NCBI RefSeq assembly: GCF_030124325.1
Contig: NZ_JASKLR010000024.1
Coordinates: 1 to 64,000, forward strand
Length of the DNA stretch: 64,000 nt
Direction of reading: 5' to 3'
Source of the DNA: Sinorhizobium sp. 8-89
GTDB taxonomy: Bacteria > Pseudomonadota > Alphaproteobacteria > Rhizobiales > Rhizobiaceae
Under the pieces are notes generated by a model, which saw only the letters and a program-made list of their open reading frames with translations, searched no databases and was not told the origin of the DNA. How positions within the stretch are numbered: position 1 is the first letter of the stretch; every line of letters begins with the position of its first letter. Positions 38,675 through 51,750 of this stretch are shown piece by piece. A program made the translations under genes and the position numbers.

Positions 38675-39889
38675 ATGGTACGGCGTTTCGAGGATGCCCG
38701 GATCCTCATGTACAGCCACGACACGTTCGGCCTCGGTCACCTGCGGCGCTGTCGGACGATCGCGCATGCGCTCGTGGAAGACTATAGCGGATTGCAGATC
38801 TTGATCATCTCCGGCGCAACGATCGCCGGAGCCTTTGATTATCGCGCGCGCGTTGACTTCGTGAAGATACCGAGCGTCATCAAACTCAGAAACGGTGAAT
38901 ACACATCGCTCGACCGGCATATCGAATTGCACGAGACGCTGAAGATGCGCCAGTCGATCATCCGCTCGACGGCGGAGACGTTCAAGCCGGACATCTTCAT
39001 CGTCGACAAAGAGCCCATGGGCCTGCGCGGAGAGGTCGAGGATACACTCACCTATCTCAAGACCCGTGGCACGAAGTTGGTTCTTGGGCTTCGGGAAATC
39101 ATGGACGCCCCGCACCTGCTCGAAGTCGAATGGAAGCGTCGCGACACCATGCGCAAGATCGAGCAGTTCTACGATGCGATCTGGGTCTATGGCCCGCCGG
39201 ATTTTTACGATCCGCTGGTGGGCCTTGAGGTGCCTGCGGCGGTGCGCGAACGCATGAACTTCGTCGGTTTCCTGCAACGAAGCGTGCCGCATGACGGGCT
39301 GCCCGACCACAGGCCCGAAGGGGACTATATCCTCGTCACCACCGGTGGAGGCGGTGACGGCGCTGAACTCATTCATGACGTGATCCATGCCTATCAGCAG
39401 GATCCCGAACTGACGCACAACGCCCTCGTGGTGCTCGGGCCTTACATGCCGGCGAAGCAACGCAACAAGCTGATCAAGAAGGGCGGTCGTATTCCTTTCA
39501 TAAAGATAATCGAGTTCGACAATCGCATGGAGGAACTGATCGCCGGCGCGAGAGGGGTGGTCTCGATGGGCGGCTATAACACCTACTGCGAGATTCTCTC
39601 CTTTGACAAACCGGCCTTGATTGTGCCGCGTCTCGAGCCGCGCGAGGAGCAGTTGATCCGCGCTCGACGCGCGTCCGATCTTGGCCTCGTCGAGATGCTG
39701 CTTCCCGATGAAGCCGAGGATCCGCTGCGGTTTGCGGCTGCGTTGAAGGCGTTGCCGGGACGTGCGCCCCCGTCGCGCGCCGCCAATGGCCTGAGGCTTG
39801 AGGGCCTTGTCCACATCTCCGAGCTTGTCGGCAGCTGGCTCGATCATAGATCGAAAGAGCACCTGAGCATCGTGAAGCAAACGAGCTGA
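38675..39889 (+). CDS. Predicted GT-B glycosyltransferase, COG4671/MurG-like (1)
   Basis: This 404-residue protein starts ILMYSHDTFGLGHLRRCRTI, where GLGHLRR is the substrate-side glycine/histidine loop of the COG4671 family. The second domain has LVTTGGGGDGAELI and a donor-site ARGVVSMGGYNTYCEILSFD resembling the GT28/MurG C-terminal fold. The donor and acceptor are not known for the family. AAAGG lies 9 nt before the ATG. The stop is 4 bp from the GTG of a GT4 gene, which in turn overlaps a second COG4671-like gene. The three form a transferase operon that could build a short glycan on a lipid or protein. Confidence 0.82.
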   Translation: MVRRFEDARILMYSHDTFGLGHLRRCRTIAHALVEDYSGLQILIISGATIAGAFDYRARVDFVKIPSVIKLRNGEYTSLDRHIELHETLKMRQSIIRSTAETFKPDIFIVDKEPMGLRGEVEDTLTYLKTRGTKLVLGLREIMDAPHLLEVEWKRRDTMRKIEQFYDAIWVYGPPDFYDPLVGLEVPAAVRERMNFVGFLQRSVPHDGLPDHRPEGDYILVTTGGGGDGAELIHDVIHAYQQDPELTHNALVVLGPYMPAKQRNKLIKKGGRIPFIKIIEFDNRMEELIAGARGVVSMGGYNTYCEILSFDKPALIVPRLEPREEQLIRARRASDLGLVEMLLPDEAEDPLRFAAALKALPGRAPPSRAANGLRLEGLVHISELVGSWLDHRSKEHLSIVKQTS

Positions 39890-39893
39890 GCCA

Positions 39894-41141
39894 GTGTCGC
39901 CAAATCGCAAGATTGCCGTAGTCCTGAAAGGCTATCCGCGCCTGTCGGAAACCTTTATCGCCCAGGAACTGCTTGGCCTTGAAAAAGCGGGACACGAACT
40001 CGTTCTGGTCGCACTCCGTCGTCCGACTGATGGCAAGCGACATCCCGTGCACGACGAAATCCGCGCCGACGTCTACTATTTGCCGGAATATTTGCACGAG
40101 GAACCGTGGCGCGTGTTTCGCGCGTCGCTGCGGCTGATGCCGAAAGCCGGCTTCTGGCGAGCGCTCGGCCCATTCCTCGCGGACCTCGTGCGCGACCCGA
40201 CGCGCAACCGGTTCCGGCGGTTCGGGCAGGCACTGGTACTGGTCGCCGAATGGCCGGGCGCTGCGACCTGGCTTCACGCACATTTCATCCACACGCCCGC
40301 CTCGGTGACCGGCTATGCCAGCATCATCGCAGGCGTCCCCTGGACCTGCTCCGCCCATGCCAAGGATATCTGGACGTCGTCCGATTGGGAGCTTTCCGAA
40401 AAGCTCGATCGGGCCCGCTGGACCGTTACCTGCACACGCAGCGGTTTCGAGCACCTGCAAAGCCTGACGGCATCGAAATCAAGGGTGCATTTGAGCTATC
40501 ATGGCCTTGACCTGGACCGCTTCCCGACGTTTGGAGGCGACCACTCCGGCCGCGACGGCTCCGATCCGGCCGATCCCGTTCGCATCGTCAGCGTCGGGCG
40601 CGCAGTCGCCAAGAAGGGCTATGATATCCTGCTGAAGGCCTTGTCGCTTTTGCCTGGCGATCTCAACTGGCGCTTCGAGCATATCGGCGCGGGTGAACTT
40701 GCCGGCGATCTCAAGAAGCTAGCCCGCGAACTCGGCCTTGCCGACCGTGTCAGCTGGAAAGGTGCGCTCGACCAGACTGACGTGCTCCAGCATTACCGCG
40801 ACAGCGACATGTTCGCGTTGGCGTGCCGGGTTGCAGCCGATGGCGATCGCGACGGCCTGCCCAACGTTCTGGTCGAAGCGTCGAGCCAGAGGTTGCCTTG
40901 CGTCTCGACATCCGTTTCGGGCGTCCCGGAATTGCTGGCGGACAATCAGAACGGCCTTCTCGTGCCCCCCGAAAACCCTCGTGCGCTCGCCGTGGCGATC
41001 GAGCGGCTGGCTCGCGACCCGGATCTCAGGCGGCAGCTTGGCACGGCCGCCGAACGGCGCGTTCGCGCCGAGTTCGATCATCATTCGAGTGTTAGCCAAC
41101 TGATCGGGCTCTTTGAAAGCGAGTGGAGCAAGGTCTCTTGA
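39894..41141 (+). CDS. GT4 family glycosyltransferase
   Basis: This 415-residue GT-B enzyme has an N-terminal VVLKGYPRLSETFIAQELLG then LEKAGHELVLVAL, characteristic of colanic-acid WcaL-like transferases. The donor half has VSVGRAVAKKGYDILLKALS and GLPNVLVEASSQRLPCVSTS (EX7E-type region). It starts with GTG 4 bp after the upstream gene, with only weak GAG ahead. Its last codons overlap the next transferase start (TTGA). It sits between two COG4671-like enzymes and probably works with them on the same acceptor. Confidence 0.88.
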   Translation: MSPNRKIAVVLKGYPRLSETFIAQELLGLEKAGHELVLVALRRPTDGKRHPVHDEIRADVYYLPEYLHEEPWRVFRASLRLMPKAGFWRALGPFLADLVRDPTRNRFRRFGQALVLVAEWPGAATWLHAHFIHTPASVTGYASIIAGVPWTCSAHAKDIWTSSDWELSEKLDRARWTVTCTRSGFEHLQSLTASKSRVHLSYHGLDLDRFPTFGGDHSGRDGSDPADPVRIVSVGRAVAKKGYDILLKALSLLPGDLNWRFEHIGAGELAGDLKKLARELGLADRVSWKGALDQTDVLQHYRDSDMFALACRVAADGDRDGLPNVLVEASSQRLPCVSTSVSGVPELLADNQNGLLVPPENPRALAVAIERLARDPDLRRQLGTAAERRVRAEFDHHSSVSQLIGLFESEWSKVS

Positions 41142-42265
41142 CCAAGCGTGTCTTCTTCTATGTGCAGCATCTGCTCGGTATCGGGCATCTGGCACGAGCG
41201 AGCCGGATCGCCAAAGCGTTGTCCGCCGACGGGTTCGACGTGACGATGGTCACCGGCGGTGCGCCTGTTCCGGGATTTCCGGGAGATGGTCTGACGACGG
41301 TCGCGCTACCTTCGGTAACGGCCGGCGATAAGGGCTTCTCCGGTCTGACCGACGGCGACGGCAATCCGGTGACGGACGCTTTCCAGCAGCACCGCAGGAA
41401 CCTGCTGATCGAGGCGCTACACGCTTCGAAACCTGATGTCGTCATCATCGAAGCTTTCCCCTTTGGCCGCAGGCAGATGCGTTTCGAACTGCTGCCGCTG
41501 CTGGATGCCATTGCGGCGATGGAGCGGCGGCCGTTGGTGGCGACTTCGCTGCGCGACATTCTGCAGGAACGGGTCAAACCCGGTCGTGCAGAGGAGACGG
41601 TGGAACTCGTCAAGGCGCATTTCGATCTCGTGCTCGTTCACGGCGATCCAGCCTTTGCTCGGCTTGAGGAAACCTTTCCGCTCGCGGGCGAGATCGCCCA
41701 GAAGGTCGCCTACACCGGTCTTGTCGCACCGCCGCCACCTGCCGAGCCGAATGAGAAATTCGATGTCGTGGTTTCGGCGGGCGGGGGCGCCGTCGGCAAG
41801 GATCTGATCGGCGCAGCGCTCGGAGCCGCAGCAATCCTGCCGACAACGTTTCGCTGGTGCCTCGTAACCGGGCCCAACCTGCCGCAGGCTGATTTCGATG
41901 CCCTCGCCGCCGTAGCTCCAGCCGGCGTTGGCCTCTTTCGCTTTCGGCAGGATTTTGCGGCCCTGCTCGCCGGGGCGCGGCTCTCGGTCTCTCAAGCCGG
42001 ATACAACACGGTTTGCGATATTCTTCGCGCCGGCTGCGGCTCGTTGCTCATTCCCTTCACGGCGGGTGGGGAAACCGAGCAGAGCACACGCGCGACACGG
42101 CTCGAGAGACTCGGCCTTGCCCGCGTTCTGCCGGAGGAAGACATCACGTCCGATCGGCTCGCACGGGATATCGAGGCGATGCTTGCCCGGCCGAAACCGG
42201 AAGTCCCGCCGCTTGATCTTGACGGCGCCGCCCGGACTGCAACGATCCTCCGGGAGCACCTGTAA
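41138..42265 (+). CDS. Predicted GT-B glycosyltransferase, COG4671/MurG-like (2)
   Basis: This 375-residue protein opens VFFYVQHLLGIGHLARASRI, the same GIGHLxRxxRI loop as the protein at 38675. The C-terminal half has VVVSAGGGAVGKDLIG and ARLSVSQAGYNTVCDILRAG, again like GT28/MurG. It is a diverged paralogue of the first gene of this operon. I prefer TTG 41138, which overlaps the previous TGA (TTGA) and has AAGG 5 nt upstream; GTG 41123 is an alternative. It ends 9 bp before a convergent methyltransferase-like gene. Confidence 0.8.
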   Translation: MTKRVFFYVQHLLGIGHLARASRIAKALSADGFDVTMVTGGAPVPGFPGDGLTTVALPSVTAGDKGFSGLTDGDGNPVTDAFQQHRRNLLIEALHASKPDVVIIEAFPFGRRQMRFELLPLLDAIAAMERRPLVATSLRDILQERVKPGRAEETVELVKAHFDLVLVHGDPAFARLEETFPLAGEIAQKVAYTGLVAPPPPAEPNEKFDVVVSAGGGAVGKDLIGAALGAAAILPTTFRWCLVTGPNLPQADFDALAAVAPAGVGLFRFRQDFAALLAGARLSVSQAGYNTVCDILRAGCGSLLIPFTAGGETEQSTRATRLERLGLARVLPEEDITSDRLARDIEAMLARPKPEVPPLDLDGAARTATILREHL

Positions 42266-42942: not shown

Positions 42943-43252
42943 GAGCCTGTTGTAAGCTGACGGGTAGGCGAGTGCAAGCCATGCGCGAGGACGCCGCAGG
43001 CCGAAGATGCTCGCGACATATGCAAGGGACCGTCAGGCTTTGCTGAAGGGGCGATCTGTTCGACGGATCTTATTCGCGGTTCGTGTCCGCTTGACATGGG
43101 GCAGGGCTCTGTTCTCATGCCGGGCAGTCACGATTTCGTGGACCATGCGCGAGTCCATTGACGATCTGGTGGACTGGAACCATCTGCGACAGGAACCCGC
43201 CGGCCCAATCGGTTCGGCGATCCGTATTTAAGTTAGGTCACATTGCCGGCAC
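42943..43252. promoter_or_regulatory. Intergenic region before the pseudo-ABC gene
   Basis: These 310 bp lie between divergent genes and encode nothing recognisable. A TTGACA at 43092 could be a -35 element for the rightward gene, but no convincing -10 follows at 17 bp. I see no hairpin terminator. Confidence 0.35.
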
Positions 43253-45964
43253 ATGGAAACACGTCTTTCCCGCTACATCTGGACCCACACACGCAAGCAG
43301 CAGCTTTGGATACTGCTGGTCGTTGCGCTGTCGATGGTACCCTATTTCCTGTCCTTTGATCTCCCCAAGCAGATCGTCAACGGACCGATTCAGGGCGCGG
43401 GTTTCGAAAGCCCCGAGGCAACCCAGGCGTTCCTGCCGATTTCCTTCGATCTGCCCTTTTTTGGCGAGGTCAATCTGTTTTCGGGCATTCAGCTTGAGCG
43501 GGAGGGAATGCTGCTTGCCCTCAGCCTTGTCTTCCTGCTGCTCGTCATCATCAATGGACTCTTCAAGTTCTACATCAATACCTATAAGGGCCGCCTCGGC
43601 GAGCGCCTCCTGCGGCGCATCCGTTTCGAGCTTGTCGACCGCGTGCTTCGCTTCCCACCGGGTCACTTCAAGCGCGTGAAGCCCGCCGAAATCTCGACCA
43701 TGATCAAGGATGAGGTCGAGCCCCTTGGCGGATTCACCGGCGATGCCTTCGTACAGCCGGCGCTGCTTGGCGGGCAGGCCTTGACGGCGCTGATCTTCAT
43801 CCTGCTCCAGAGCTTGTGGCTCGGTCTCATCGCCGCCTTTATCGTCGCGATACAGGCGGTGATCATCCCACGCATGCGCCGGCGGCTGATCGTCCTCGGG
43901 CGCGAACGCCAACTGACGGCGCGCGAATTGTCGGGCCGGGTCAGCGAGATCGTGGACGGCATCGGTACCATTCGCGGGCATGATACGTCCAACTATGAAA
44001 GAGCCGACATCGCCGCCCGCCTCGGCCGGATATTCAAGATCCGCTATGATCTCTATCAGTGGAAATTCCTGGTCAAGTTCCTGAACAACTTCCTGGCTCA
44101 GGTCACTCCGTTCCTGTTCTACTCGATCGGCGGCTATTTCGCCCTGCAAGGCCGGCTCGACATCGGCCAGCTCGTTGCGGTGATCGGCGCCTACAAGGAC
44201 CTGCCTGGCCCGCTGAAAGAACTCATTGACTGGGATCAGGCGCGTCAGGACGTGCAGGTCAAGTACGCCCAGGTCGTCGAGCAGTTCAGTGTCCAGCCGT
44301 TGATCGATCCCGGTGTCCAGGCGATCTCGGTCACCGCTGCGGCGCCGATCACGGGCGCGCTTGCGGCCGTCAATCTTTCCGTGGCCGATGACGGCGGTTC
44401 GAAGCTCGTGGAACATGTGTCGCTCCAGGTGCGCCCCGGCGAAGCTGTCGCGATCACGGGCGGCTCGACCGGCGGGGGAGAGGCGCTTGCCGAGGCCTTC
44501 GGACGCCTGACATGGCCCGAAAGCGGCAGGATCGTCGTCGGCGACGATGATATCCACGACATGCCGGAATCGGTCGTCGGACGGCGAATCTCCTACGCCT
44601 CGTCGGAGGTCTACACCTTCCAGGGCAGCCTCGGCGACAATCTGCTTTACGGCCTCAAGCACGCGCCTCTGCAGGAGGTGACTTACGAGGGCGACAAGGC
44701 TGCCCATCGTCGGTGGGAGGTGCTCGAAGCAAAACTTGCCGGCAATCCCTCGCTCGATCTCAACAGCGACTGGATCGATTATGGGGCCGCGGGTGCGACC
44801 AGCCCGGATGATCTCTTCGCGAAGGTCAGAGCCGTGCTCGATACCGTGCTTCTCACGAACGACATCATGGCGCTCGCGGGCCGCGCGACCATCAATCCTG
44901 AGGAACACGAGGCTTTTGCCGCTGAAATCGTGGAGATGCGTGGAGCCCTTCGCAGACGTCTCGAAGCCGAGAAGCTCAGCGATCTCGTCGTGTTCTTCGA
45001 ACCGGGCTCCTACAATATCGAAGCGACGGTCGGCGAAAACCTGCTCTTCGGGACGGTGACCGATCATGCGCGCTGGGAAAGGGCGCTCGAAGACCACCCC
45101 TTCTTCAAGACGGTCTTGAGAAGAGCCGGGCTGCACGAGATCTTCTACGAGATGGGCCTGGAAATTGCCGGCAACGTCGTCGAACTGTTCCGCGACCTGC
45201 CGCCGGACCACCCATTCTTCCAGCAACTCACTTTCATGGCGGCAGAAGAGATTCCGGTCTATGAAGCGCTGCTCCAGAAGGTGAGGGGACGAGCGCTCGA
45301 CGAGGTTTCCGAAGATGACGCCATCAAGGTCATCCGGCTGTGCTTCGGCTATATCGAGCCACGCCACCGCTTCGGTCTGTTGTCGGAAGAATTGATGACG
45401 AAGATCGTCGAGGCGCGGCGAGAGTTCAGCGAAGGTTTGCCCGAGGATCTCGTCGGCATCATCGAGCACTACCAGCCGAACCGTTACATAGCCTCGGCCA
45501 GCATCATCGATAACGTGCTCTTCGGCCGCATCGGCCACAAGCACACCGACGGTTCCGAGAGAATTCGCGCAATCGTGCGCGATCTCTTCGAGTCGCTCGG
45601 GCTCTACAACGATGTGCTTGCCTTCGGACTGGACTTCAACGTCGGCGCGGGCGGCAAGCGGCTGACCGCGGGCCAGCGGCAGAAGCTCAATCTTGCGCGC
45701 GCATTGATCCGCATATCGGACTTCTACATCTTCAATCAACCGCTGCTCGCCCTCGACCAGCGAGCACAGGAGCAGATCACCCGCAACGTCTTTGCCTTCC
45801 TGCGCCAGGACGAACGCAAACCGGCGATCGTCTGGGTTCTCGCCAATCCGGCTCTTTCCGAGTTGTTCGATCGCGAGGCGAACTTCGAAAACGGGCGGCT
45901 CGTGAGCGACGAAGCTGTGGAAACAAGTGTGAAAGACACCGACTATAAGGAACTGGCATCTTGA
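43253..45964 (+). CDS. ABC exporter homologue with degenerate ATPase domain and large insertion
   Basis: This 903-residue protein starts with a type-1 ABC exporter membrane domain (about 1-335, five to six helices). Its nucleotide-binding domain has lost the catalytic set. Walker A reads GSTGGGEA with Glu410 for Lys and Ala411 for Ser/Thr. The Q-loop Gln is Ser450. Walker B DE is Asn828-Gln829 (FYIFNQPLLALD). The H-loop His is Asn865. A signature-like LTAGQRQ (804-810) remains. Q-loop and signature lie about 350 residues apart instead of about 85, so roughly 265 residues are inserted. The segment (S/T)xxxNLLFG occurs three times (459, 592, 750), suggesting internal duplication. It probably no longer hydrolyses ATP. 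The gene after it encodes a cyclic-nucleotide-binding protein. Confidence 0.85.
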   Translation: METRLSRYIWTHTRKQQLWILLVVALSMVPYFLSFDLPKQIVNGPIQGAGFESPEATQAFLPISFDLPFFGEVNLFSGIQLEREGMLLALSLVFLLLVIINGLFKFYINTYKGRLGERLLRRIRFELVDRVLRFPPGHFKRVKPAEISTMIKDEVEPLGGFTGDAFVQPALLGGQALTALIFILLQSLWLGLIAAFIVAIQAVIIPRMRRRLIVLGRERQLTARELSGRVSEIVDGIGTIRGHDTSNYERADIAARLGRIFKIRYDLYQWKFLVKFLNNFLAQVTPFLFYSIGGYFALQGRLDIGQLVAVIGAYKDLPGPLKELIDWDQARQDVQVKYAQVVEQFSVQPLIDPGVQAISVTAAAPITGALAAVNLSVADDGGSKLVEHVSLQVRPGEAVAITGGSTGGGEALAEAFGRLTWPESGRIVVGDDDIHDMPESVVGRRISYASSEVYTFQGSLGDNLLYGLKHAPLQEVTYEGDKAAHRRWEVLEAKLAGNPSLDLNSDWIDYGAAGATSPDDLFAKVRAVLDTVLLTNDIMALAGRATINPEEHEAFAAEIVEMRGALRRRLEAEKLSDLVVFFEPGSYNIEATVGENLLFGTVTDHARWERALEDHPFFKTVLRRAGLHEIFYEMGLEIAGNVVELFRDLPPDHPFFQQLTFMAAEEIPVYEALLQKVRGRALDEVSEDDAIKVIRLCFGYIEPRHRFGLLSEELMTKIVEARREFSEGLPEDLVGIIEHYQPNRYIASASIIDNVLFGRIGHKHTDGSERIRAIVRDLFESLGLYNDVLAFGLDFNVGAGGKRLTAGQRQKLNLARALIRISDFYIFNQPLLALDQRAQEQITRNVFAFLRQDERKPAIVWVLANPALSELFDREANFENGRLVSDEAVETSVKDTDYKELAS

Positions 45965-46023
45965 TGTAGTATTAGTGTCAAGGCGCAAGCATATTTTCCC
46001 GCTCGCCGGGGGAAAGGGTGCTT

Positions 46024-46521
46024 ATGCCCGCGACACACTCGGAGAAACGGACTGTTATGCTCCTAAAAGATGAAGTGGAAATGCTGCGCCGGATCACGCT
46101 GTTTTCCGGCTTGCCACCCGCCAAGCTCAAGCTTCTGGCATTCACCTCCGACAGGGTAATGTACAGCGCGGGAGAAAATCTGTTTCATCAGGGCGATATC
46201 GGCGACGCGGCCTATGTGATCCTCTCCGGCAAAGCCGACGTTTTGGTTACGACGCCAACTGGACAATTGAAGGTCGCCGAGGTGGAACAGAATTCGATCG
46301 TCGGCGAGATCGCCATCCTCTGCAACACACCGCGCACCGCTACCGTCAAGACAAGTACGGCGCTCGAAGCGTTGCGCATTCGCAAGGACGATTTCCTGAA
46401 ATTGCTGGCGGACTTCCCGGAGATGGCGGTGGAAATCATGCGGGTGCTCGCCGACCGCCTCAGCCAGACCACCTCCGAACTCACCGAAGCGCGCAGCCGC
46501 GCTCAGAGGGCAGAGGCGTAA
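46024..46521 (+). CDS. Stand-alone cyclic nucleotide-binding (CNB) domain protein
   Basis: This 165-residue protein is essentially one CNB beta-roll (about 15-135). It has GENLFHQGDIGDAAYVILSG and the phosphate-binding cassette VGEIAILCNTPRTATV, which keeps the Glu and Arg that contact the cyclic phosphate. It has no HTH, unlike CRP/FNR; the C-terminus (about 140-165) is a short charged helix, SQTTSELTEARSRAQRAEA, that could form a coiled coil. ATG 46024 follows AAGG by 6 nt; GTG 46018 is less likely. It starts 59 bp after the pseudo-ABC gene and probably reports cAMP/cGMP to it. Confidence 0.86.
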   Translation: MPATHSEKRTVMLLKDEVEMLRRITLFSGLPPAKLKLLAFTSDRVMYSAGENLFHQGDIGDAAYVILSGKADVLVTTPTGQLKVAEVEQNSIVGEIAILCNTPRTATVKTSTALEALRIRKDDFLKLLADFPEMAVEIMRVLADRLSQTTSELTEARSRAQRAEA

Positions 46522-46648: not shown

Positions 46649-47398
46649 ATGCGCGCGATTACTTATTTTCAGAAGACCGTTTATTTTCCCGAAAAGCCGG
46701 AGAAGGCGCGCTTCTTTGCTCGGCTGCAAGGCGGGCAATGGGAGCCCGGTACGTTCCGCAATATAGAGCGCCTCGTCGACGGGACGACGACGTTCATCGA
46801 CATCGGCGGCTGGATCGGCGTAACGCCCTACTGGACAGCGCAGATCGCGGACAATGTCATCACGGTCGAGCCCGATCCGGTGTGCTTCGACATACTCACG
46901 CAGATGCAACGCGAAAATGCGGGCGAGGTGAAGCTCATCAATGCGGCGCTATCCGAGGACGAATGCCTGGTGCTGCACTCGGTCGGCGGCGGCTTCGGCA
47001 GTTCCGAAACTTCGGCGCTGATTGCCGACGACACGGGCATGGCTGTGACGGCGCAGACCGTCACCGTTGCCGACCTTCAGACAATGGCAAGAACGGAACG
47101 GCTCTGCTTCAAGATCGACATCGAAGGCTACGAGTACAAGGCGCTCGATCAGTTCCGGGCGATCGACCGCAAGAGAACGGCGGGCGTGCTAATCGCGGTG
47201 CATCCGCAGATCCTCGCCGCCTCCCTATCCGGTCCGCGGTTCATCCGCGTGCTGCGAACGATCGCGGCCACGGTGCGCCTGGTCCGGAGCTTTCGCGGGT
47301 TCAGGCTCGAAAACCCGTCCGCCATCTGGGCGGCGATCCGCAAATCGGTGGCGCGGCGCGAATTCAAGGGCTTCGATCTGCTCTTCGTCGCGAAATGA
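46649..47398 (+). CDS. FkbM family methyltransferase
   Basis: This 249-residue SAM-dependent methyltransferase has motif I in TTFIDIGGWIGVTPYW and the acidic strand VITVEPDPVCFDIL. The FkbM signature LCFKIDIEGYEYKALDQF is followed by a VLIAVHPQIL strand. FkbM enzymes O-methylate sugars or polyketides; in rhizobia they often decorate surface glycans. GAGG lies 5 nt before the ATG. It follows the CNB gene by 127 bp in the same direction and may share its transcript. The lead MRAITYFQKTVYFPE is typical of glycan FkbM proteins. Confidence 0.87.
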   Translation: MRAITYFQKTVYFPEKPEKARFFARLQGGQWEPGTFRNIERLVDGTTTFIDIGGWIGVTPYWTAQIADNVITVEPDPVCFDILTQMQRENAGEVKLINAALSEDECLVLHSVGGGFGSSETSALIADDTGMAVTAQTVTVADLQTMARTERLCFKIDIEGYEYKALDQFRAIDRKRTAGVLIAVHPQILAASLSGPRFIRVLRTIAATVRLVRSFRGFRLENPSAIWAAIRKSVARREFKGFDLLFVAK

Positions 47399-47532: not shown

Positions 47533-48000
47533 TCATCGTGCCTTGACCCGCAACGGATCGATACCGCTGCGGCCGAAACGGGCTGGTTCCTGTGCCTTGT
47601 CGGAGTTCGCTTCCGCTTCGGCAAGGTCATCGAGAATCGGGCAATCCGGCCGCTCGTCGCCGTGGCAATGGGCGGCGAGGTGCTTGAGCGTCCGGCTCAT
47701 CGCCTTCAGTTCTTCCGCCTTGCGCTCCAGGATTTCCACTTGATCGAGCGCGATCTTCTTGACCTCGCTGCTTGCACGGGAGCGGTCGCGCCAGAGTGCA
47801 AGCAGATCCGCCATCTGCTCGACCGTGAAGCCGAGATCACGCGCGCGGCGGATGAAGCGCAGCGTATGGACGTCGTTGTCGCCATAGTTGCGGTAACCGG
47901 ATTCGCTGCGGTGGGCGGGCGGAATGAGGCCGATCGTCTCGTAGTAGCGGATCATTTTCGTCGAGACGCCGGAGGCGCGCGCGACATCGCCGATATTCAT
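47533..48000 (-). CDS. cueR: Copper-responsive MerR-family activator
   Basis: This 155-residue regulator has the MerR HTH at the N-terminus (MNIGDVARASGVSTKMIRYY then ETIGLI), a long dimerisation helix (about 80-110) and the Cu(I)/Ag(I) loop Cys112-x7-Cys120 (CHGDERPDC). These cysteine positions equal those of E. coli CueR. The His/Asp-rich tail beyond 120 is longer than in enterobacteria. ATG 48000 is preceded by AAAGGTG; an ATG 13 codons earlier is unlikely. It is the last gene of the copper operon, 166 bp after copA, so it should be autoregulated through the operator at 51724. Confidence 0.94.
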   Translation of the reverse strand: MNIGDVARASGVSTKMIRYYETIGLIPPAHRSESGYRNYGDNDVHTLRFIRRARDLGFTVEQMADLLALWRDRSRASSEVKKIALDQVEILERKAEELKAMSRTLKHLAAHCHGDERPDCPILDDLAEAEANSDKAQEPARFGRSGIDPLRVKAR

Positions 48001-48166
48001 GACATCACCTTTCAGGGCAATTCCAGGAAAAGCGTGCAACAGTCTTCCGTCCGGAATTGCGTTAATTTCAAAGAGTTAGATCATTCGCTGACTGTTTCAA
48101 TGATCGATGCAAGCATATGCCGCTGATATAGGACTTTCGCCCGGGAGGCGCCAACGGCGCCAAGCG

Positions 48167-50689
<2,523 letters not shown>

Positions 50690-50720
50690 GTCGTGCTCCT
50701 TGCAATTCGATTGCGAACCA

Positions 50721-50768
50721 GAGCGCCGTGCGTTCAAATGAACGCACAAAGGACGCTGTGGCACTTTG
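50721..50768 (-). repeat. Rhizobial intergenic repeat with perfect hairpin upstream of copA
   Basis: Read on the minus strand, CAAAGTGCCACAGCGTC is followed by the hairpin GTGCGTTCA/TGAACGCAC (50728-50747, 9-bp perfect arms, 2-nt loop). The left part matches the repeat at 8930-8951. The hairpin ends 38 bp before the copA start, so it lies in the leader or between copA and the upstream gene. It may only be repeat structure, or may attenuate or protect the mRNA. Confidence 0.55.
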
Positions 50769-50774
50769 GTTCTA

Positions 50775-50817
50775 GAGCATGCCGCTTTCAGTGATTCCGC
50801 CTGAAAGCGGGATGCTC
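50775..50817. repeat. Long inverted repeat (stem-loop) between DUF4396 gene and copA
   Basis: Arms GAGCATGCCGCTTTCAG (50775-50791) and CTGAAAGCGGGATGCTC (50801-50817) pair over 17 positions with one mismatch and a 9-nt loop. Hairpins beginning near TCTAGAGCAT are frequent between genes in rhizobia. With no T-tract it is more likely an mRNA-stabilising or processing structure than a strong terminator. Confidence 0.6.
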
Positions 50818-50899
50818 CAGGATGAGGCTTCTGGCGTAAGGTCAAGCTTGCCTTGCCCGTTCGCTCGCTTTTTCCGCCTTTCGAAAATGCATCGTGAGT

Positions 50900-51409
50900 T
50901 CAATGTTTGTGGTGGGCGTGGATGACGGCGTGCCCCCTGCCGCGGGCGATCAGCCAGCGGTTGACAGGAAAGGCGGCGCCGCCGGCGATAACGAGCGATA
51001 CGGCGAGGCTGATCCAGAAGTGTGGCGATGAGAGACCAGCGTCCATTGCGCCCGGGATCGCCAGCATCATTGCGTTGTCGACAAGTTCCATAATTGCGAT
51101 CGACGCCGTGTCCGAAGCGAGCGCCAGTTTGAGCACGGCGGCGAATGGCATGCCAGCCCGCAGCAGCGGGAACATCGTCAGCCCATAGCCGAAGATGAAC
51201 GCCAGCAGGACGGCCAACACGATCGTCTTCATATTGCCCCATCCAAGCGCGGTGCCGATCACCATGCCCAAAGCCTCACCGATGGCACAGCCGGTCAGAC
51301 AGTGCACGGTGGCGGAAAAAGCCAATCGGTTCAGCGATGTCGCTGCGGCGGACACGTTAGCGGAATGACCGCCGTGGCCGTGATGATGGGCGTGTCGGTG
51401 CTGTTGCAT
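50900..51409 (-). CDS. DUF4396 membrane protein
   Basis: This 169-residue protein has a very histidine-rich N-terminus (MQQHRHAHHHGHGGHS) that could bind copper, then four hydrophobic helices, and a histidine-rich end (HAVIHAHHKH). The core LAFSATVHCLTGCAIGEALGM is the DUF4396 signature, with a conserved His-x-x-x-Gly-Cys inside the first helix. I start at ATG 51409, which has GGAG 8 nt upstream; ATG 51430 has no site. It sits between copZ and copA, so it is a likely copper-handling membrane protein; its biochemical role is not established. Confidence 0.85.
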   Translation of the reverse strand: MQQHRHAHHHGHGGHSANVSAAATSLNRLAFSATVHCLTGCAIGEALGMVIGTALGWGNMKTIVLAVLLAFIFGYGLTMFPLLRAGMPFAAVLKLALASDTASIAIMELVDNAMMLAIPGAMDAGLSSPHFWISLAVSLVIAGGAAFPVNRWLIARGRGHAVIHAHHKH

Positions 51410-51490
51410 GTTCAAGCTCCGATTCTTCATGGGAAGAATAGAGGGGCAGCGCTCGGGCTGTGCCGGGCGCTGTGGCGACCGTATCCAGCT

Positions 51491-51688
51491 TTACAGCCGC
51501 AGACTGTCGTAACCGGCCGTCTTCAACGCCTGCGCGATCATGCCGCTGTCCGCGGTCGTTTCGACGCTTACTTCCTTCGTGCCGAGATCCACGTTGACCT
51601 TGGCGGCCGGATCAATTCCCCGGATCGCCTTTTCGACCGTGCTGACACAGTGGCCGCAGCTCATGTCGTCGATCTTGTAGCGTTGCAT
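51491..51688 (-). CDS. copZ: Copper chaperone, heavy-metal-associated domain
   Basis: This 65-residue protein is a single ferredoxin-like HMA domain with metal motif MSCGHC (Cys11, Cys14). It ends TAGYDSLRL. It ferries Cu(I) in the cytoplasm, normally to CopA. ATG 51688 is preceded by AAGGAG at 6 nt; an ATG at 51748 would read through the operator. It is the first gene of the operon, with its promoter immediately upstream. Confidence 0.92.
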   Translation of the reverse strand: MQRYKIDDMSCGHCVSTVEKAIRGIDPAAKVNVDLGTKEVSVETTADSGMIAQALKTAGYDSLRL

Positions 51689-51723
51689 GCTTGTCTCCTT
51701 TGTTTCGCTATGGCATGAAGATG

Positions 51724-51750
51724 GAGCTTCCCATCGTTGGAAGGTCAAGG
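51724..51750 (-). promoter_or_regulatory. CueR-type operator/promoter for copZ operon
   Basis: On the minus strand a TTGACC -35 box is followed by the dyad ACCTTCC-AACGAT-GGGAAGCT and, 19 bp after the -35, a weak -10 (CATCTT). An overlong 19-bp spacer filled by a dyad is the hallmark of MerR-family promoters, and ACCTTCC/GGAAG matches the CueR box. It lies 36 bp before the copZ start. Cu(I)-loaded CueR from the same operon should activate it. Confidence 0.78.

Follow-up and report, generated by a model that had tools for sequence, protein, structure and literature searches.

Among the described ATP-binding cassette (ABC) proteins, MsbA and NdvA are homodimeric exporters, TmrAB, TM287/288 and MsRv1273c/72c carry one degenerate site (Walker B, H-loop), and SUR and CFTR have been turned into a regulator or a channel and still bind ATP. 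We analyzed a 64,000-nucleotide stretch of Sinorhizobium sp. 8-89 (assembly GCF_030124325.1, contig NZ_JASKLR010000024.1, positions 1 to 64,000; the window), in which an exporter-like protein of 903 residues, here called the pseudo-ABC, is encoded beside a stand-alone cyclic-nucleotide-binding (CNB) protein. The pseudo-ABC resembles MsbA and NdvA in the family of its transmembrane domain (TMD) and the fold of its nucleotide-binding domain (NBD), and MsbA is both its best NCBIfam match, at 153.9 bits for TIGR02203 and thus far under the cut-off of 602, and its best sequence match in the Protein Data Bank (PDB). Unlike MsbA and NdvA, however, it has no catalytic residues, carries an insert of about 265 residues, is accompanied by an obligate CNB partner and shows a reversed pattern of conservation. 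The degenerate Walker B and H-loop recall the TmrAB type, whereas here the Walker A and signature are degenerate too and no conserved partner half lies adjacent. As in SUR and CFTR, an ABC architecture that would not actively pump is tied to a signalling input, but here a separate CNB subunit likely provides the input, within a bacterial glycan pathway. By descent the pseudo-ABC is an ABC exporter; for its likely mode of action, that of a dead ABC exporter switched by a cyclic nucleotide, we know of no bacterial precedent.

The membrane domain of the pseudo-ABC is intact (PF00664, E 1.6e-19) and classifies as a six-helix TMD of the ABC exporter (type IV) superfamily, while the ABC_tran match (PF00005) is confined to residues 387-475, the N-terminal NBD half. 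A first-pass annotation of this DNA had stated that all ATPase residues are substituted, and the protein indeed keeps none of five, namely the Walker A Lys, the Mg-binding Ser/Thr, the Walker B Asp and Glu, and the H-loop His. Alignments with the family and with the solved MsbA also agree with that annotation on the Q-loop, where Gln is replaced by Ser451, and on the Walker B, where Asp-Glu has become N828-Q829. Two of its placements, by contrast, are off by one residue: the Lys position is not Glu410 but Gly409, Glu410 standing at the Mg-binding Ser/Thr position, and the His position is Ala864 rather than Asn865, which replaces the Arg that follows. True motifs elsewhere in the protein are ruled out by the MsbA alignment (residues 90-486 and 791-882), which puts the motifs at these positions.

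The loss is class-wide. The family set comprised 72 non-redundant members at a 75% identity cut, with three more, diverged in the TMD, set aside. None of the five residues is kept in 34 members, one in 17, two in 11, three in six and four in four. Homologues with all five, which the annotation had named together with misplaced motifs as grounds for abandoning its claim, were found neither among the 72 nor among 178 aligned members. Residue by residue, Lys is retained in 21 of the 72, Ser/Thr in nine, Asp in 14, Glu in 19 and His in 10; Lys and Ser/Thr coexist in two members, Asp and Glu in four. The Q-loop Gln survives in 8/72, and the signature glycines in 8/72 (the second, column 807) and 7/72 (the first, column 806). 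The NQ/E replacements, whose conservation had been raised as a check, are shared by many members without being universal (Asn at 828 in 53/72, Glu or Asp at 410 in 48/72). The family tree, whose outgroup branch is very long and in which several forks are open, served solely to show that the decay is graded. In it, several members with more of the residues left diverge closest to the NdvA outgroup, while the clade that includes the window protein has 0/5 in each of its 19 rows; explaining the pattern of residue loss takes at least 21 changes. The decay of the motifs is graded and old, and ATP hydrolysis by the pseudo-ABC has, judging from the sequences, almost surely been lost.

Such decay raises the question of whether the gene is a pseudogene or a sequencing artefact, an explanation that draws on the change of every catalytic motif and on inner stops within the matched stretch in a few rows (G038 and G134 in the family draw, G360 in the class draw). 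Nearly all rows of the two draws, however, have no inner stop, and matches were found in 70/151 family genomes (E<=1e-60) and, across the alphaproteobacteria, in 132/385 class genomes (E<=1e-25), a few of the latter partial or membrane-domain-only. In the phylum draw 32/398 genomes matched, one of which, G636 (membrane domain only), lies outside the class. The ratio of nonsynonymous to synonymous substitution rates (dN/dS), determined by the NG86 method in custom code for the window gene against 12 Sinorhizobium/Ensifer orthologues, is 0.052 in the TMD, 0.121 and 0.095 in the N-terminal NBD part and the insert, and 0.097 in the C-terminal NBD part, at a dS of about 0.8-1.0 and thus near saturation. 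With these values of 0.05-0.12 and the 132 class genomes, a pseudogene or sequencing error is ruled out for practical purposes. Purifying selection on the pseudo-ABC is strongly supported, and the earlier statement that the membrane domain is intact, the frame open and the gene maintained stands.

What is maintained differs from what a canonical exporter maintains. Over 29 relatives the mean identity is 81% in the TMD and 62% and 58% in the NBD parts, the NBD being lower in 29/29, whereas an NdvA-like canonical control, present in 27/28 of nearly the same genomes with all five ATPase residues kept in 27/27, has 75% in the TMD and 79% in the NBD, which is the higher in 18/27. Within the TMD, E117, R121, R124, R224, E232 and R264 are invariant in the 72 members, K105 and N279 are kept in 71 and K271 and K275 in 70, and N278 is conserved as well. 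In helices 2 and 5, the basic residues may form a site for an anionic substrate.

The CNB gene follows the pseudo-ABC through the family with few departures. Of 151 family genomes, 69 have both genes (CNB at E<=1e-30) and 81 have neither, the one exception, G039, having the two joined in a single protein. At a looser E<=1e-20, seven more genomes match the CNB but not the ABC, the best at 6e-27, and these were taken as paralogues. Counted over 68 non-redundant loci, the CNB gene comes immediately after the ABC gene, in the same orientation, in 61; in four it is fused, including the partial and doubtful L149, and in three it was not seen. Pfam placed the CNB domain after the ABC in all four fused proteins scanned. 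Among the three loci without a visible CNB gene, the sequence of L177 ends 333 bases after the pseudo-ABC gene, while L141 (G374) and L142 (G307) have a CNB orthologue elsewhere, 51-56% identical, adjoining and divergent from the genes for the glycosyltransferases GT4 and GT28-like A. A third genome without an adjacent CNB gene, G405, is 63% complete. L141 and L142 keep four of the five ATPase residues, which may be meaningful or due to chance. Fisher P values for the co-occurrence of the ABC with the CNB gene and with the glycosyltransferases ignore shared ancestry and are overstated, so that the unlinked cases carry this argument. Taken together, the family-wide loss of the motifs, the purifying selection, the phyletic co-occurrence and the natural fusions argue for a functional pairing of the dead exporter with the CNB protein, as the first-pass annotation had proposed, and the role of the CNB as an obligate functional partner is strongly supported.

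The CNB protein itself fits its earlier description as a sensor with an intact phosphate cassette and no DNA-binding part. It matches PF00027 (E 5.5e-21; 74.8 bits against a cut-off of 27.5), and the Pfam scan returned no helix-turn-helix or other DNA-binding match. The distance of 59 bp given for the two genes holds for a start at ATG 46024 (165 aa), but the start is uncertain: GTG 46018 (167 aa) and ATG 46057 (154 aa) are alternatives, and the annotated S. meliloti CNB gene, of 465 bp and 154 aa, corresponds to the last of these. Over 71 non-redundant relatives, with cut-off sequences counted as gaps, G96 of the cassette is retained in 94%, E97 in 83%, R106 in 92% and T107 in 79%; the Thr that follows the cassette Arg presumably matches the type of residue with which protein kinase G recognizes cGMP. 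These residues correspond to those that contact the cyclic nucleotide in S. meliloti Clr, given as G85, E86, R95 and S96 in a figure legend of the Clr study (PMC10127613). In length (154-167 aa) and in having no helix-turn-helix match the CNB is unlike Clr, a cAMP/cGMP receptor of the Crp/Fnr family. We infer from the sequence that it may bind cAMP or cGMP. The CNBs of the bacteriocin-type family TIGR03896 are, going by the family name, associated with exporter-type ABC proteins, and those exporters are canonical; the window CNB reaches 52.9 bits for this family, under the cut-off of 161.05, and stands in a glycosyltransferase pathway.

A purely structural CNB subunit that has lost cyclic-nucleotide sensing would account for the few divergent CNBs without cassette residues (L170, L172). 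We consider it improbable in view of the retention of G96, E97 and R106 and of the genes that surround the distant relatives. Near the pair, the class III cyclase cluster is represented in 13/27 distant and 6/17 close loci (stretches of about 12 kb). Cyclase counts per genome were available for 24 of the distant loci; there, the 13 observed compare with 0.86 expected, or 2.45 when the counts are tripled, and none of a million simulated runs reached 13; genomes in this search (n = 24) hold from 1 to 36 PF00211 matches. Of the 13 loci, 12 have a PF00211 match and L199 relies on blastp clustering alone. Two cyclases beside the pair, L116:1272-3128 and L113:9045-10751, carry a 2Fe-2S ferredoxin domain, which suggests a redox input.

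The pair also keeps company with three glycosyltransferases. GT28-like A (E<=1e-40) is found in 69/70 ABC-positive family genomes, GT4 (E<=1e-70) in 68/70 and GT28/MurG-like B (E<=1e-40) in 66/70, each of them in 0/81 ABC-negative genomes. GT4 lies within 20 kb of the ABC gene in 39/68 cases, further away on the same contig in five, and on another contig in 24, where breaks between draft contigs may split true neighbours. In the class draw, which has just the window's genome in common with the family draw, 125 of 385 genomes have both the ABC and GT4 (E<=1e-50), seven the ABC only, two GT4 only and 251 neither, with the two genes at most 6 kb apart in 93/125 and a median gap of 1480 bp. Because of this co-occurrence in both draws, the membership of the ABC-CNB pair in a conserved, undescribed glycan module is well supported. 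The earlier picture of a gated pseudo-transporter, channel or receptor thus holds in part: it is borne out for the dead, paired exporter, but it did not take in the co-occurring glycosyltransferases, which argue for glycan or glycolipid work and against a free-standing channel or receptor.

Structure prediction is in keeping with an exporter. The AlphaFold2 (AF2) model of the pseudo-ABC has a pLDDT of 78.5 and a pTM of 0.70, being weak at residues 153-172 and 319-349, and the Foldseek matches of this model are ABC exporters, the best with an E of 1.1e-13 and TM-scores of 0.34 (query) and 0.52 (target), TmrAB being among the top matches. The insertion reported between the Q-loop and the signature is real and spans about residues 471-735. 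It is predicted to be a folded helical domain, residues 468-745 modelled alone giving fair confidence (pLDDT 79.2, pTM 0.63). As a known domain it had to be rejected, there being no Pfam match in the region and no PDB fold match for the model at E<=0.001. Of the threefold NLLFG repeat described earlier, copies 2 and 3 (A and B) are true repeats, with an hhalign probability of 98.7 over 64 columns. Copy 1 (NLLYG) is native, standing where exporters ordinarily have the segment that follows their Q-loop; its similarity to copies 2 and 3 covers just 23 and 22 columns, at probabilities of 57.9 and 91.1.

The appearance of TmrAB among these matches brings up another explanation, in which the pseudo-ABC would combine, as the degenerate half, with a canonical half encoded elsewhere to give a heterodimeric exporter, the CNB modulating the complex. 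The degenerate halves of heterodimeric exporters keep an intact signature, whereas that of the pseudo-ABC is degenerate (second Gly in 8/72, first in 7/72). Heterodimeric exporters with one degenerate site are on record (PMC12038006). Nevertheless, another ABC-cluster open reading frame (ORF) of at least 500 aa occurs within the stretch around the pair in just 4/45 loci (L066, L106, L117, L194), an unlinked partner not having been sought, and within the window's own genome the top hit besides the protein itself has 22% identity. Judging from these linked genes and the signature, we consider a heterodimer very improbable.

Diverged relatives bear on the need for an NBD. Eight loci, L184-L191, encode the membrane domain only, in 335-413 aa in seven of them, the gene in L188 being broken by a stop. 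None of the eight stretches has a meaningful CNB match, and probing them with a canonical NBD (E<=1e-3) gave a match in L187 alone, inside a separate ORF of 1031 aa. As paralogues with a membrane domain and no NBD in the protein itself, they suggest that a TMD of this type can exist on its own and manage without ATP. L184 and L186 adjoin a gene of the CopB cluster (identified as CopB by Pfam in L186), L187 and L190 a pirin-cluster gene, and L191 what we take to be a cytochrome c'-like gene. In a further group, L196 and L197 together with L181-L183, proteins of 850-866 aa have the NBD and insert in common with the pseudo-ABC (29-30% identity for L196 and L197) and a diverged TMD; no CNB match was found in these five loci.

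Based on these observations, we propose a cyclic-nucleotide-gated, ATP-independent membrane switch in a glycan pathway, most likely for gated, energy-independent glycan flipping, and give this proposal an about even chance. The exporter half, in all likelihood unable to hydrolyse ATP, would form one membrane unit with the CNB, which, as a separate protein or in some lineages as a C-terminal fusion, would dock on the dead NBDs. Binding of cGMP or cAMP to the CNB would shift the seating of the NBDs and so replace the conformational input of ATP, and the shifted NBDs would switch the transmembrane domain. With its conserved polar and basic residues, the membrane domain would serve the pathway of one GT4 and two GT28-like glycosyltransferases, and their product, a glycan that is lipid-linked or anionic, would flip across under this gating without energy input. 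Given the almost certain loss of hydrolysis and the constancy of the CNB partner, the simplest reading is a cyclic nucleotide in place of ATP as the switch, and gating of this kind is compatible with an unbroken cassette and with the cyclases found beside distant relatives. Glycolipid passage is suggested by the tie to the glycosyltransferases and by the conservation of the membrane domain. In this proposal, the loss of ATP hydrolysis, the ligand, the docking site, gating and transport are inferences from the observations above.

Several observations weigh against the gated switch. The Walker A Lys is retained in 21/72 members, in which ATP could be bound without hydrolysis. Cassette residues are lost in divergent CNBs, with E97 replaced by Val in L172, and E97 by Asp and R106 by Tyr in L170. 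A cyclase is near in only 6/17 close-relative loci; positions 34001-56000 of the window hold no member of the cyclase cluster, and among the PF00211 matches listed for the window's genome, which has 36, none lies on the window's contig. Moreover, ATP-free flipping of a polar glycolipid can only run downhill, and a scaffold without transport would explain the genomic data equally well. Such a scaffold, a cyclic-nucleotide-responsive platform that recruits or controls the glycosyltransferases with no passage through the membrane, would draw on the same pairing and glycosyltransferase co-occurrence, and SUR, an ABC relative that regulates instead of transporting, has chains among the PDB sequence matches of the pseudo-ABC. 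Yet the TMD is the most conserved part of the protein, with polar residues within its helices, which is more than an anchor seems to need, and we regard the scaffold, the chief alternative to the gated switch, as unlikely, if only moderately so.

Current annotation does not reflect these features. In the annotated S. meliloti record the pair is named 'ABC transporter ATP-binding protein' and 'Crp/Fnr family transcriptional regulator', and the public entries in which the CNB bears the Crp/Fnr label are L206 (CP050512.1) and L204 (CP050561.1), while the window orthologue has no DNA-binding domain match. The pseudo-ABC matches 114 NCBIfam models, none over its cut-off among the best 25 of the 114, and the CNB five, none over the cut-off; Pfam gives general domains only for both proteins. 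In the open-licence literature searched, no study of the ABC-CNB pair was found. The closest named genome among the matches listed for the pseudo-ABC is S. psoraleae (99% protein identity), and the orthologue of S. meliloti 1021 lies on pSymB (NC_003078.1, 841723-844992). SMb20813 is presumably this orthologue. One paper terms SMb20813 the msbA homologue of S. meliloti (PMC10945364), and another treats SMb20811 (PMC6180224). The features of the window are collected in Table 1.

Table 1. Features of the pseudo-ABC/CNB locus, in positions of the window.
Feature	Position	Strand	Remarks
Pseudo-ABC exporter	43253..45964	+	903 aa, uninterrupted frame; PF00664 and partial PF00005
TMD, residues 1-345	43253..44287	+	Best conserved part of the pseudo-ABC (72 non-redundant members)
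Degenerate Walker A, residues 403-411	44459..44485	+	Gly409 at Lys position, Glu410 at Ser/Thr position
Helical insert of ~265 residues (predicted), residues 471-735, between Q-loop and signature	44663..45457	+	AF2 model
Internal repeat copy A, residues ~573-637, with NLLFG	44969..45163	+	hhalign of sub-profiles
Internal repeat copy B, residues ~731-794, with NVLFG, ending directly before the signature	45443..45634	+	hhalign
Signature region LTAGQ, residues 804-808	45662..45676	+	Family and MsbA alignments
Degenerate Walker B, residues 824-829, N828 Q829 replacing D E	45722..45739	+	Family and MsbA alignments
H-loop His position, Ala864	45842..45844	+	Family and MsbA alignments
Stand-alone CNB protein, 167 aa from GTG	46018..46521	+	PF00027
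Phosphate-binding cassette of CNB, residues 96-107 (numbered from GTG 46018)	46303..46338	+	Conservation, 71 relatives
GT28-like glycosyltransferase A of the co-occurring module	38675..39889	+	PF04101
GT4 glycosyltransferase of the co-occurring module	39894..41141	+	PF00534; best NCBIfam EpsE, below cut-off
GT28/MurG-like glycosyltransferase B of the co-occurring module	41123..42265	+	PF04101
FkbM-family methyltransferase, downstream of the CNB gene	46649..47398	+	TIGR01444 above cut-off

Other neighbours are less constant. The FkbM methyltransferase stands beside the pair in 4/17 close and 0/27 distant loci, only in Sinorhizobium/Ensifer among the sampled loci. An MBL-fold protein, considered as a possible cyclic-nucleotide phosphodiesterase, is near the pair in 11/17 close and 10/27 distant loci; one member scores 65.8 bits for RNase Z (cut-off 292.95) and 41.7 bits for NF041851 (cut-off 400), and another has PDB matches to RNase Z and ELAC1. 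A DUF3095 cluster, whose members we take to be possible cyclase relatives, is found in two close loci and one distant locus (L085:14274-15449, L106:14207-15376, L113:1700-2917), Pfam having been run on L085 alone. On the minus strand, an antisense open frame of 916 aa (43238-45988) spans nearly the whole pseudo-ABC gene and is probably a shadow of codon bias. Positions 47533-51748 of the window hold what by eye is a copper-efflux-like cluster, with a MerR-type regulator, a P-type ATPase and a small metal-binding protein.

In its broadest form, which we hold only tentatively, the proposal is that of a class-wide family in which a cyclic nucleotide has taken the place of ATP, with dead NBDs serving as CNB docking site and relay in a second-messenger-gated glycolipid flippase or channel. 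If so, prokaryotes would have arrived independently at a counterpart of CFTR and SUR. A gated switch of the kind proposed for the pair would represent a new use of the ABC exporter fold, with second-messenger control through a separate sensor and no ATP hydrolysis, and would offer a naturally occurring case in which to ask whether lipids can be moved by ABC membrane domains without ATP. It would correct the annotations 'ABC transporter ATP-binding protein' and 'Crp/Fnr regulator'. The class III cyclases, of which these genomes have many, are mostly without a known role, and the switch would link them to surface glycan synthesis.

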